This document shows positions 52,505-59,851 of a stretch of 62,420 nucleotides of DNA, one piece after another. A program made the position numbers and the translations under genes. Within the stretch, counting starts at the first letter, position 1. Each line of letters begins with the position of its first letter. The notes under the pieces are model-generated. The model ran no database searches. It saw nothing but the letters and a program-made list of their open reading frames with translations, and had not been told where the DNA came from. Source of the stretch: Sporomusaceae bacterium (GTDB lineage: Bacteria; Bacillota; Negativicutes; Acidaminococcales; JAJUGR01); NCBI GenBank assembly GCA_029265905.1, contig JAJUGR010000013.1:1-62420 (forward strand). The letters run 5' to 3'.

Positions 52505-52570
52505 ATAAGCAAATGCGCGCCGTGAAGGTGGTGGCAGTGTGCATATCGGGTGAGTTGGGGGTGGTGGACG

Positions 52571-54073
52571 ATGGTGATGCGGCCGCTTTCGATCAGCGGG
52601 AGACTGCTGCTGTTAATCATCGTGGTTGTGGCCGTGCCGGTGCTGGCGTCGGGCTTTTTGATTTCCGTCCATTTGGAGGAGGCCTTGTCCGACGAAAAGA
52701 CGAGCAAGCTGTTTGGCGCGGCCAGGCTGCTGGATGCCGCCATGCCGGAGAGCTACCAGGACATCCTTGTAGAAAAGGGCGCCGTCCAGGCGGACCGGGA
52801 GGCAAAAATCCGGGTGCTCAACGAATTTTTGCACGAGCGAACCGAGCGTGTGGCCGCCGCTTACCCCGGAATCGGCGTCGGCTACTACAGCAAGGAGCTG
52901 GATGCGATTTTAAGCTACGGCCCTTCGGCGGAAATGGGGAACACCGTTGGAACGCCCATCGCTGACACGCATCGCGGGCGCGAGGTGATGGCCAGCGGAC
53001 GTGAGACCGTTCAAAAAGGGAGCCTGGTGCGCGGCAACGTTATGAATGCGATGCACCCGGTGATTCGCAACGGGGAAGTGATCGGCTACATATGGGCCAA
53101 TGAGTTGATGGCCAACATCGAAGTGCAGATGCAAGTGCTGCGCCGCAATATTTATCTGGCGATTGCAATCGGACTGCTGGTCGGACTGATCGGCGTTACA
53201 GAGCTGATCGACAAGTACATGGAGATGATTCAAACCATAAAGAGCGGAATCTTGAACTTGCAGCAAAACCACCGCTTTCGCCTGGCGCCGGTCAAAGACG
53301 AGATGGCCCCGATCGTGACGGCGGTCAACCAAATGGCGGACGAATTGGCGGCCCGCCGTGAGGCGGAGAGCCGCGCCCACCAGGCGGAGCGTCTGGCGGT
53401 GGTGGGCGAGATAGCCGCCGGTATGGCGCATGAAATTCGCAATCCGCTGATGTCGATCCGCGGCTTTGCCCAGTTGCTGCAGGAGGATATGCCGCCTGAC
53501 GGCGCTCAGCACCAATATCTCTCTATTATCGTCAAGGAAACACAGCGCATGAATGATTTGATCGAGCGACTGCTGCATTACGCGCGTCCGCCCGGCGGTC
53601 GCGAGGCCTTAGTCAGCGTCAATGCGGTTTTGTTAGATACGCTGCAGCTAACCGCAAGCCGGATTAGGAGGAAAAACATCAGCTTGGAGCACCGGCTGGC
53701 TGATGGCTTGCCGTGCGTTTACGCCGATCAGGAGCAGCTCAAGCAGGTTGTGCTGAATTTGCTGATCAACGCAATACAGGCTCTGGAAAACAGGCCGGGT
53801 GAGGGGAGTGTTCTGGCGGCGACCGGTTATGACGCAGAATTGGAGCGGGTAAAAATTAGCGTCAGCGACAACGGCGACGGCATTTCCGAAGAGATGATCG
53901 ATAAAATTTTCATGCCGTTCTTCACGACCAAGGAGCAGGGCACAGGGCTTGGGCTGGCGATGGTTGAAAAAACGGTGACGAATATGGGCGGCGCGGTGCA
54001 GGTGGCGTCAACTAAAGGTGAAGGTGCCTGCTTTACCCTGCTGCTGCCGCCCGCTAAGGGGGATGTTTGTTGA
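52571..54073 (+). CDS. AtoS/NtrB-type sensor histidine kinase
   Basis: 501 residues from ATG 52571 (GGGGGTGGTGG upstream; ATG 52577 also possible). Helix 1 at about 12-34, an external sensor region (35-190) of unassigned fold, helix 2 at about 192-212, then HAMP-like linker. HisKA has H287 in GMAHEIRNPLMSIRG; HATPase has NLLINAIQAL, VSDNGDGISEEMIDKIFMPFFTTKEQGTGLGLAMVEK. The HEIRNPL motif and adjacent NtrC-type regulator place it in the class that controls sigma-54 promoters. Its stop overlaps the regulator start. It likely senses a short-chain acid. Confidence 0.88.
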   Translation: MVMRPLSISGRLLLLIIVVVAVPVLASGFLISVHLEEALSDEKTSKLFGAARLLDAAMPESYQDILVEKGAVQADREAKIRVLNEFLHERTERVAAAYPGIGVGYYSKELDAILSYGPSAEMGNTVGTPIADTHRGREVMASGRETVQKGSLVRGNVMNAMHPVIRNGEVIGYIWANELMANIEVQMQVLRRNIYLAIAIGLLVGLIGVTELIDKYMEMIQTIKSGILNLQQNHRFRLAPVKDEMAPIVTAVNQMADELAARREAESRAHQAERLAVVGEIAAGMAHEIRNPLMSIRGFAQLLQEDMPPDGAQHQYLSIIVKETQRMNDLIERLLHYARPPGGREALVSVNAVLLDTLQLTASRIRRKNISLEHRLADGLPCVYADQEQLKQVVLNLLINAIQALENRPGEGSVLAATGYDAELERVKISVSDNGDGISEEMIDKIFMPFFTTKEQGTGLGLAMVEKTVTNMGGAVQVASTKGEGACFTLLLPPAKGDVC

Positions 54074-55464
54074 AAGAGCCGGTTATTTTAATTGTTGATG
54101 ATGAGGCGCCGGTCAGGCTGCTGCTGACGGAGATCGCGAAAAAAGAGGGGTTTGTCACCCAGACGGCCGAAAACGGTCAGGAAGCGGTTGATTTGGTGCG
54201 GTCGGAATGCCCGGATTTGGTGTTCATGGATATTCGGATGCCGGTGCTTGACGGCATGGCGGCTTTTGACATAATGCATGAGGCTTACCCTGATTTGCCG
54301 GTCGTGCTGCTGACGGCGTACGGGACGGTGGACATCGCTGTCGAGGCGATGCACAAGGGCGCGTTCGACTATTTGGTCAAACCGGCTGATGTGGTGGAAA
54401 TTCGGGCGGTGATGAACCGGGTGTTGGCCATTTGGCGCATGCGCGAGGAGTTGGACGGGCTCAGGCGGGAAACTGGCCTGTGGAAGGCGCCGGACAAGAT
54501 TGTCGGACGCAGCGCGGCGATGCAGAACCTGTATAAAATGGTGACGCGCGTGGCCGCTTCCTCGGCGACGGTGCTGATTACCGGCGAGAGCGGCAGCGGC
54601 AAGGAATTGATCGCGAAAACGATTCATGCCAACAGCCCGCGCGCCGGCGGCCGTTTTGTAAAAGTCAATTGCGGGGCGCTGCCGGAAAACCTGATCGAAA
54701 GCGAATTGTTCGGTTATGAAAAAGGCGCGTTTACTGGCGCGGTCGCCAGAAAACTGGGCCGTTTCGATTTGGCGCACGGCGGCACGCTGTTTTTGGATGA
54801 AATCGGCGATTTGCCGCTCGCCATGCAGGTGAAGCTGCTGCGGGTGCTGCAAGAGCAGACGTTTGAACGGGTGGGCGGCGTGGAAACAGTGCAGGTGAAC
54901 GTCCGCGTTTTGGCCGCCACCAATAAAGATTTGTCGAAGATGGCGGAAGCGGGCGCTTTCCGCAAGGACTTGTTCTACCGCCTGAACGTCGTGCCGGTCA
55001 AGGTGCCGCCGTTGCGCGAGCGGCGGGAGGACATTCCGCTGCTGGCGGAGCATTTTCTGCAGCTGTTTGCCAACTGCCACCACTGTGAGGCGCCGGTGAT
55101 GACGGAGGCGGCTCTGCGCGAATTGGTGCAATATGACTGGCCGGGCAATGTGCGGGACTTGGCCAATGTTTTGGAGCGGGCGGTGATTCTGTCGCAAGGG
55201 ATACTTGATGTGGAAGATTTTTCTTTTTTGGCGCCGGCGGCTCTCGCCGCAGCGCCGGGTAGCGACGAGGCTTTTTTTGACTCGCTGTTGAACCGGGGGA
55301 CGCTCAAAGAGATGCTGGCGGAAGTGGAGCGCCGTATTTTGCTACACGTCCTGAACGAAGTGGCGGGGAACCAGTCGCAGGCCGCGCTTCGTTTGGGGAT
55401 GAGCCGGCGGAACCTGATCTATAAGCTGCATGAGCATGACCTCATCCGGCAAGAAGAAGCTTAG
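54070..55464 (+). CDS. NtrC/AtoC-type sigma-54-dependent response regulator
   Basis: 464 residues from TTG 54070, which puts the phosphoacceptor at D54 as in NtrC; TTG 54067 is the alternative. Receiver domain (1-120), AAA+ domain (about 140-375) with Walker A GESGSGKE, sigma-54-contacting GAFTGA, Walker B GGTLFLDEIGDLP and arginine-finger region FRKDLFYRLNVVPVKVPPLRER, and C-terminal Fis-type helix-turn-helix (NQSQAALRLGMSRRNLIYKL). The two next operons both have sigma-54 promoters, so it is their likely activator. Confidence 0.92.
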   Translation: MKEPVILIVDDEAPVRLLLTEIAKKEGFVTQTAENGQEAVDLVRSECPDLVFMDIRMPVLDGMAAFDIMHEAYPDLPVVLLTAYGTVDIAVEAMHKGAFDYLVKPADVVEIRAVMNRVLAIWRMREELDGLRRETGLWKAPDKIVGRSAAMQNLYKMVTRVAASSATVLITGESGSGKELIAKTIHANSPRAGGRFVKVNCGALPENLIESELFGYEKGAFTGAVARKLGRFDLAHGGTLFLDEIGDLPLAMQVKLLRVLQEQTFERVGGVETVQVNVRVLAATNKDLSKMAEAGAFRKDLFYRLNVVPVKVPPLRERREDIPLLAEHFLQLFANCHHCEAPVMTEAALRELVQYDWPGNVRDLANVLERAVILSQGILDVEDFSFLAPAALAAAPGSDEAFFDSLLNRGTLKEMLAEVERRILLHVLNEVAGNQSQAALRLGMSRRNLIYKLHEHDLIRQEEA

Positions 55465-55483
55465 TTGCCAGGCAGATGCTTGT

Positions 55484-55539
55484 GCAAAACAGAACAGGCG
55501 AGTGTGCAACAAATTGCACACTCGCCTGTTCTGTTTTGC
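55484..55539 (+). terminator. 26-bp perfect hairpin after the regulator gene, possible activator site
   Basis: Arms 55484-55509 and 55514-55539 are perfect complements around CAAA; the outer end has GCAAAAC/GTTTTGC. Little T-run follows. Its centre contains TGTGCAA-CAAA-TTGCACA, a palindrome of the type bound by NtrC-class activators. It may be terminator, upstream activator sequence, or both. Confidence 0.7.
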
Positions 55540-55604
55540 TAATGGGCTGTGCGGTGTGCTTGTCAGGGCGCGCGCTGCCGGATGTTGTTCGTTTGAGAAA
55601 AAGT

Positions 55605-55620
55605 TGGCACGAAATTTGCA
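55605..55620 (+). promoter_or_regulatory. Sigma-54 promoter of atoB operon
   Basis: TGGCACGAAATTTGCA matches the consensus TGGCACG-N4-TTGCA exactly; the invariant GG and GC are 10 bases apart. The atoB start is 41 bases after it. Confidence 0.92.
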
Positions 55621-55660: not shown

Positions 55661-56839
55661 ATGAAGGAAGTGGTTATTGTCAGTGCGGCGAGGACGCCGA
55701 TCGGCAATTTTAACGGGAGCTTGGCGCCTTTTTCCGCGCCGGAGCTCGGCGCAATTGCCATCAAAGCGGCGCTTGAGCGGGCGGGCATCAAGCCGGAACA
55801 AGTCGACGAAGTGATCATGGGGAACGTCCTGCAGGCTGGTCTTGGCCAAAACCCGGCCCGTCAGGCGGCGATCAAGGCCGGCATTCCAGTGGAGACGCCC
55901 AGCCTGACAATCAATAAGGTTTGCGGCTCAGGCCTGAAGGCAGTCAACCTGGCGGCACAGGCGATTGTGGCCGGCGATGCGGACATCGTCGTGGCCGGCG
56001 GCATGGAGAGCATGACGAATGCGCCGTATTTGCTGGAAAAAGCGCGCTGGGGGCAGCGGATGGGCGACGGCAAACTTGTCGACGTGATGATTCGTGATGG
56101 ATTGTGGGATGCGTTCAACGATTGCCACATGGGCATTACGGCTGAGAATGTGGCGGAACAATACGGCTTGACTAAAGAGCAGCAAGACGAGATGGCGGCG
56201 GCCTCGCAGCAAAAGGCCGTGGCGGCGATCGAAGCGGGTGCCTTTAAGGAAGAAATCGTGCCTGTGATTATCAAGGGTAAAAAAGGCGACACAGTCTTTG
56301 ATACGGACGAATATCCACGCGCGGGGACGACGACCGAGGCGCTGGCCAAGCTGAAACCGGCCTTTAAAAAGGACGGAACGGTCACGGCCGGCAATGCCTC
56401 CGGCATCAACGACGGCGCGTCGGCGGTGGTCGTTATGTCGAAGGAAAAAGCCGAAGCGCTGGGCATCAAACCGATGGCGAAGATCGCGGGCTATGGCTCC
56501 GGCGGCGTCGAGCCGGCGGTGATGGGCTTGGGGCCGGTGCCGGCGGCGAAACGGGCGCTGAAAAAGGCGGGCCTGACGATTGACCAGCTGGATTTGATCG
56601 AAGCCAACGAGGCGTTTGCCGCGCAGTGGCTGGCGGTCGGCAAGGAATTAGGCTTTGACGCGGATAAGGTCAACGTCAATGGCGGCGCGATCGCGCTCGG
56701 CCATCCGATTGGCGCCAGCGGCAACCGCATTCTCGTTTCACTGTTGCATGCCATGAAAAAACGCGGGGCCAAGCGCGGCCTGGCGACCCTTTGCATCGGC
56801 GGCGGCCAGGGGGCGGCGACGATTGTGGAATTGCTGTAA
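55661..56839 (+). CDS. atoB: Acetyl-CoA acetyltransferase (thiolase II)
   Basis: 392 residues from ATG 55661 with GAGGGGG about 9 bases before. Cleaves or forms acetoacetyl-CoA. Catalytic C88 in [12 protein letters not shown]348 in [10 protein letters not shown] and C378 in TLCIGGGQG. Numbers agree with classical biosynthetic thiolases. In this operon with a CoA transferase and AtoE the direction is probably cleavage to acetyl-CoA during use of acetoacetate or butyrate-level acids, though synthesis is equally possible in a fermenter. Confidence 0.95.
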
Positions 56840-59574: not shown

Positions 59575-59628
59575 CTAAAAAACAAGCGCTTCGCACGCCC
59601 GAAATGGCGCGAAGCGCTTGTTTTTTAG
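59575..59628 (+). terminator. Terminator after atoA, 20-bp perfect stem
   Basis: CTAAAAAACAAGCGCTTCGC and its exact complement GCGAAGCGCTTGTTTTTTAG, with six T residues in the second arm. Confidence 0.9.
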
Positions 59629-59678
59629 CGGTGTGGAAGGGGGCGGCTGTAAAAAGGCGTGCCGGTTTGAGTTGAAGC

Positions 59679-59726
59679 CAAGTGATGAAAAGGCGCATCG
59701 CGATCGATGCGCCTTTTCATCACTTG
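59679..59726. repeat. 22-bp perfect inverted repeat with CGAT loop
   Basis: Arms 59679-59700 and 59705-59726 are exact complements (CAAGTGATGAAAAGGCGCATCG as two halves, written here as its first 11 and last 11 bases). No T tract follows. Second terminator or protein-binding site. Confidence 0.7.
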
Positions 59727-59764
59727 AAAGATCGGAAAAATCAGAGTATTGCCTGCTTTCAGGG

Positions 59765-59797
59765 TTTTGCGATGACATATTTCATCGAGAGCGCAAA
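59765..59797. promoter_or_regulatory. Nested inverted repeat upstream of second sigma-54 promoter
   Basis: Outer TTTTGC/GCAAAA and inner CGATGA-N6-TCATCG. Its centre is about 60 bases before the -24 element; position suits an enhancer site for the AtoC-type regulator. Confidence 0.45.
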
Positions 59798-59835
59798 AAT
59801 CCCCGGCAAAAGCCTGGTTGGCGGGGCATAAATGT

Positions 59836-59851
59836 TGGCACGAATTTTGCA
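59836..59851 (+). promoter_or_regulatory. Sigma-54 promoter of hbd-atoE2 operon
   Basis: TGGCACGAATTTTGCA again matches TGGCACG-N4-TTGCA exactly. The two promoters differ only in the N4 spacer. Confidence 0.92.

Follow-up and report, generated by a model that had tools for sequence, protein, structure and literature searches.

The intergenic region between the AtoC-like regulator gene and the atoB-like gene of the window (the whole stretch of DNA analyzed, 62,420 nucleotides of contig JAJUGR010000013.1 from a Sporomusaceae bacterium) contains a perfect inverted repeat at 55484–55539. The explanation we favor, and consider probable, is that this element combines two roles in this genome, a composite AtoC enhancer for the atoB operon and a terminator for atoSC. 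Judged from its sequence, the dyad at the centre is very likely to be the enhancer on which AtoC acts, and a role for the same DNA as the atoSC terminator is plausible. The hairpin centre would be the upstream activating sequence (enhancer) for atoB and the rest of its operon, where an AtoC dimer would bind TGTGCAA-N4-TTGCACA, aided by at least one outer half-site at a distance of 22 bp; once phosphorylated, AtoC would form a ring and loop to the sigma-54 polymerase at 55605. Here the operator flanks would have become fully self-complementary, so that the same DNA, when transcribed from atoC, would yield a strong hairpin. Read-through from atoC would run into this hairpin, with its U-rich descending arm, as the only candidate terminator for atoSC.

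Both regulator genes are on the forward strand. The sensor histidine kinase gene (52550–54073) has AtoS (NF008468) as its best NCBIfam match, with 514 bits, which is below the 646-bit equivalog cut-off; the best match of the sigma-54 response regulator gene (54067–55464) is AtoC (NF008469), with 527 bits, again below the cut-off (714 bits). The latter score weakens a claim of strict equivalence, but not the claim that the regulator is AtoC-like. Its C-terminal helix reads SRRNLIYKL, compared with SRRALMYKL in E. coli AtoC, and the SRR...YK pattern is found in the E. coli protein and in all 35 class regulators compared, versus three of 29 more distant relatives from a phylum search. Regulators whose loci have no good dyad show the pattern too, including the second AtoC-like protein of the same genome (L083), so the helix alone does not predict the site; it looks necessary, but not sufficient, for the dyad. 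Downstream, also on the forward strand, a −24/−12 sigma-54 promoter (TGGCAC-N5-TTGC, TGGCACGAAATTTGCA; 55605–55620) matches at 10 of 10 scored positions. It precedes the atoB-like acetyl-CoA acetyltransferase gene (55661–56839), with which the predicted regulated operon starts; atoE, atoD, and atoA follow.

The stem begins 19 bases after the stop codon of the AtoC-like gene at 55464, in keeping with an earlier note that placed a 26-bp perfect hairpin behind the regulator gene. The arms (55484–55509 and 55514–55539) are 26 nt each, 100% complementary, and separated by a 4-nt loop; a 96-nt RNA around the hairpin folds with −60 kcal/mol (z = −9.64), a value equaled by none of 200 shuffles. At the centre lies the dyad TGTGCAA-CAAA-TTGCACA (TGTGCAACAAATTGCACA; 55503–55520), the predicted enhancer. 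Its centre is ∼94 bp from the GG of the −24 element, close to the ∼95 bases given previously. An outer half-site, TGTGCAA (55481–55487, forward strand), starts exactly 22 bp before the central TGTGCAA, and a degenerate mirror of it, TTGCTAA (55536–55542, reverse strand), can be seen by eye, symmetric about 55511.5. Of a possible second site about two helical turns away, one outer half-site is clear, at 22 bp, and the partner half is degenerate. The T-rich portion CTGTTCTGTTTTGC sits within the stem and no T run follows it, in agreement with the earlier remark that a strong T tract is absent. An inner 15-bp stem would be followed by TTCTGTTT; in the full 26-bp stem, the same T tract is paired.

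The dyad is unique in its genome. The exact form TGTGCAA-N4-TTGCACA occurs once in 2,422,892 bases, and the sole copy with one mismatch (L002) lies inside open frames, one of 184 aa, and is therefore probably coding sequence. The 26-bp arm length is not special, because long hairpins are frequent in this genome: 35 with arms of at least 16, at most one mismatch, and a loop of 3–14 were found in the 462 kb sampled, the longest arm being 30. A 26-bp stem as a remarkable feature in itself was ruled out by this background. The half-site was found in one of the 35 sampled hairpins, that at 55484–55539, and the chance of the apex 7-mer TGYGCAA in a given perfect stem is ∼1e-4, as estimated from base composition. 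Comparison with Rfam gave 13 weak matches (12 miRNA families and one sRNA family), all under the gathering scores, which were taken as noise due to hairpin shape.

The central dyad matches AtoC sites bound in vivo. The E. coli atoD sites GCTATGCAGAAATTTGCACA and GCTATGCAGAAAATTGCGCA were positive for AtoC binding by ChIP (PMC3118216, Table 5), and the target is described in that report as two inverted 20-bp sites. The K-12 sequence (L082) agrees with the published sites. On its other strand, the first site reads TGTGCAA-ATTT-CTGCATA and has 12 of 14 half-site bases in common with the window, along with the 4-bp spacer; the second, also read on the other strand, has 11 of 14 in common and an equal 4-bp spacer. 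Like the E. coli atoDAEB target, the window element lies downstream of atoC and upstream of an ato operon with a sigma-54 promoter, and the two share TGTGCAA-N4 dyads, an inverted-repeat layout, and a similar recognition helix in the regulator. They differ in architecture: the E. coli target consists of two dyads 19 bp apart in an inverted repeat with 20-bp arms (18/20 matching) and no T tract after it, whereas the window has one strong dyad that centres a 26-bp perfect stem, plus outer half-sites.

The palindrome had been described as NtrC-like, a label that does not hold. NtrC enhancers have the consensus TGCACC-N5-GGTGCA. The window dyad is like them in being a predicted binding site for a sigma-54 activator of the same superfamily, but the order within the half-site is wrong for NtrC, with TGTGCAA pointing inward. 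The window reads TGTGCAA-N4-TTGCACA, not the NtrC consensus; NtrC identity was therefore rejected, and the AtoC type fits.

The dyad recurs in ato loci of Negativicutes. A class-wide search for AtoC-like proteins (E ≤ 1e-120) gave 36 places in 30 of 380 genomes, from which one (G317:C64, with two internal stops) was omitted; the 36 loci examined comprise the window, 34 AtoC places, and L086, a linked ato contig of genome G310 that lacks atoC. At 13 of the 36 loci, a scored sigma-54 promoter is preceded, within 200 bp, by a dyad with at most one mismatch (16 distinct sites, 12 genomes). The remaining 23 have weaker forms (two to four mismatches) or none in that range; a one-mismatch dyad at L094 is too distant from the scored promoter and is outside the 16. 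Fourteen of the 16 sites have a left half-site (at most one mismatch) 16–22 bp upstream of the dyad, compared with none at 9–15, 23–29, or 37–43 bp and two at 30–36 bp. The exact dyad followed after 60–90 bp by a sigma-54 promoter was found at seven places in six of the 380 class genomes, and at none in the reversed control. Six of these places fall in an atoSC cluster, following atoC at a distance of ∼1.2 kb in G074, with an hbd-like gene in between; the seventh is on a short contig that carries atoD-, atoB-, and hbd-like genes and no atoC. None of 29 distant loci from the phylum search had a dyad with at most two mismatches in the 520 bases after the regulator gene (fewer where the locus ends), a control that is weak because an atoE-like gene lies downstream in only five of the 29. 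In some other bacteria, of Pseudomonas and Fibrobacteria (L047, L048, L051, L081, and other loci), the dyad occurs in tandem copies ∼22 bp apart before sigma-54 promoters, with no long stems.

Long palindromes around the dyad are a feature of some Negativicutes. Nine of the 16 sites have the dyad at the centre of one, by an extension score of 9 or more, and the divergent site of L085 would be a tenth, at 8.3. Exact-pattern operators in other records provided a control: none of 36, taken from a scan of 84,980 genomes after removal of three loci recognized as Negativicutes, has a long palindrome, the top extension score being 4.3. The difference gives a Fisher p of 3e-6, with no correction for related loci, which both groups contain: among the sites, L103 and L106 are nearly identical, and so are several of the Lonsdalea and Pseudomonas loci among the controls. 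The stems differ in sequence across lineages but remain self-complementary. In a flank-swap comparison of 12 sites (19 promoter-site pairs minus seven near-duplicates), a site's own flanks pair at a mean of 9.9 of 14 positions, versus 4.85 for swapped flanks. The locus of the closest AtoC relative (L084, from G081, JALHDB010000001) has the same central half-sites and the same half-site at 22 bp, set in an unrelated stem of 25 bp. Palindromes also lie between divergent atoS and atoD-like genes, where they span 22–23 positions with two or three mismatched in G308, and 22 positions, perfect, in G094 and G074. That of G310 (23, perfect) is probably divergent by synteny; its contig ends before atoS. 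On the atoE side the stems of sister sites have 21 (three of them G–T; L088), 18 (L085), eight (L087), and seven (L089) pairs, a variation that indicates that the stem is gained and lost. G–T pairs were inspected by eye at two sites for a strand bias that would separate selection on RNA from selection on DNA, and the deviations were too few.

The enhancer half of the proposal that a terminator doubles as an enhancer is well supported by the match to AtoC sites, the recurrence in ato operons, the distance to the sigma-54 promoter, and the recognition helix; the terminator half is plausible only. It is plausible here because no other T-tract hairpin was detected before the promoter, the genes are in tandem, and the arms are A- and T-rich. 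The element has a stable GC-rich stem at a gene end and resembles intrinsic (Rho-independent) bidirectional terminators in its long GC-rich stem, A-rich ascending and T-rich descending arms, and position. It differs from them in that the T tract is interrupted and paired in the stem, and the apex is a predicted protein-binding site. In both the window and L084, the interval from atoC to the promoter yielded a single T-tract hairpin, which overlaps the dyad. Elsewhere the arrangement varies: L099 and L101 combine a bare dyad with a terminator distinct from it; L085, L088, L103, and L106 have a palindromic dyad plus a separate terminator; and many relatives have no terminator by the T-tract hairpin rule, which is crude and missed a terminator visible by eye at L098. 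At eight ato loci (L083, on contig C26 of the same genome, L099, L101, L103–L106, and L108), a terminator stem after atoC ends 9–15 bases before the −24 element, so that the T tract of this terminator points at the sigma-54 promoter or enters it.

Gene orientation bears on the same question. Among intergenic regions of more than 60 bp, with orientation taken from crude ORF calls of which some are misassigned (e.g., hbd of the window), long hairpins numbered 12 per 102 tandem, 15 per 36 convergent, and three per 51 divergent regions in 462 kb of the window's own genome, and 26 per 242, 14 per 50, and one per 65, respectively, in 800 kb of G094. Long hairpins are rare in divergent regions, so an operator palindrome in such a region is not what one would expect of a terminator. 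Since operator palindromes of the relatives lie between divergent genes or beside a separate terminator, they need not exist for termination. A precedent for dual use is offered by the DNA uptake sequences of Neisseria and the Pasteurellaceae, which form terminator hairpins according to PMC1852404. There too a DNA word of other function makes terminator hairpins; however, uptake words are, in that account, generally present in at least 1,000 copies per genome, and the window has one operator beside its own regulator. Among the matches listed from the open PMC literature, at the level of titles and abstract openings, none described an AtoC or sigma-54 enhancer within a terminator hairpin, and the terms sought were absent from the available text of a study of sigma-54 regulons in Clostridiales (PMC6615313).

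The long operator palindromes in some Negativicutes may reflect a symmetric multi-dimer operator, a terminator or insulator, or mutational perfection. That the window hairpin is an ordinary intrinsic terminator whose apex resembles an AtoC-like word by chance strikes us as very improbable. It is placed at a tandem gene end, has a 26-bp stem, and is matched by a terminator scan (which gave seven sites in total versus 6.3 expected in shuffles), and long hairpins of this genome are mostly at gene ends, 27 of the 35 sampled being in tandem or convergent regions; but such a reading has to accommodate the ∼1e-4 chance of the apex word, the single exact site in this genome, the shared centre with a different stem in L084, and the dyads that follow atoC without a long stem in L098, L099, and L101. 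A stronger alternative, which we regard as a serious possibility if somewhat short of an even chance, is an extended symmetric AtoC operator, in which a central dimer is flanked by two outer sites, one of them the inverted copy of the other. The look of a terminator, A and T tracts included, would then be a by-product of the outer half-sites, GCAAAA...TTTTGC. This reading overlaps with the composite enhancer–terminator and differs from it on the reason for the stem. It is favored by the palindromes found where atoS and an atoD-like gene diverge, in G308, G094, G074, and probably G310, all of which have sigma-54 promoters within reach and outer TGAGCAA half-sites at 20–21 bp, and by the two inverted 20-bp sites reported for the E. 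coli target (PMC3118216). It is also favored by a AAAAAGTAGTCA-like element that stands just before the central half-site in L085, L087, L088, L089, L091, L093, L094, and L097 and may represent the weak half of a further AtoC site upstream. Against it, a right outer half-site (at most one mismatch, 16–22 bp) is present at only one of the 16 sites, and the stem between half-sites is unconserved yet complementary, whereas recognition of half-sites alone needs no pairing.

The palindrome could be mainly a product of mutation, with template switching at imperfect inverted repeats perfecting operator flanks that have no function of their own. Mutation by template switching has been documented for quasipalindromes (PMC7202029), and the unequal stems of the sister atoE-side sites (21, 18, eight, and seven pairs) are consistent with it. 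We nevertheless judge this origin unlikely, as none of the 36 similar operators in other bacteria has such a long palindrome and the stems at the divergent site, which differ in sequence, are perfect in three of the four genomes. A supercoiling-sensitive cruciform, whose extrusion would split the AtoC dyad and turn the enhancer off, would suit the perfect arms of 22–26 bp and 4-nt loops in several lineages; it is inference only, and we think it very doubtful. More broadly, and as a speculation to which we give only modest credence, Negativicutes AtoC operators may form a class of structured enhancers in which the palindromes stay complementary while their sequence turns over, and the fold (terminator, insulator, or cruciform) works with the apex-bound activator. 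If so, one DNA element would end or block transcription and drive the next operon.

The composite enhancer–terminator is of interest because enhancers and terminators are usually held to be separate modules, and in two lineages (the window and L084) a single short palindrome appears to combine them, with similar palindromes recurring in other lineages where no gene ends. The recurrent dyad suggests an AtoC operator motif for Negativicutes that would aid prediction of ato regulons there. Stem pairing and binding word can be separated by compensatory mutations, which makes a clean test possible.

Hairpins were also seen near other sigma-54 promoters. In L132 and L134, another NtrC-family gene is followed by a hairpin of 19 pairs (two G–T, one mismatch) centred on TGCCCA...TGGGCG and then by a sigma-54 promoter; this could be the same kind of fusion, serving another regulator. 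Within the window, the atoA–hbd gap (59575–59850) holds a pair of perfect hairpins, of 20 and 22 bp, together with a second sigma-54 promoter (TGGCACGAATTTTGCA, at 59836) that lacks an AtoC-type dyad; the arms TTTTGCG...CGCAAAA noted there by eye (59765–59798) may serve another activator.
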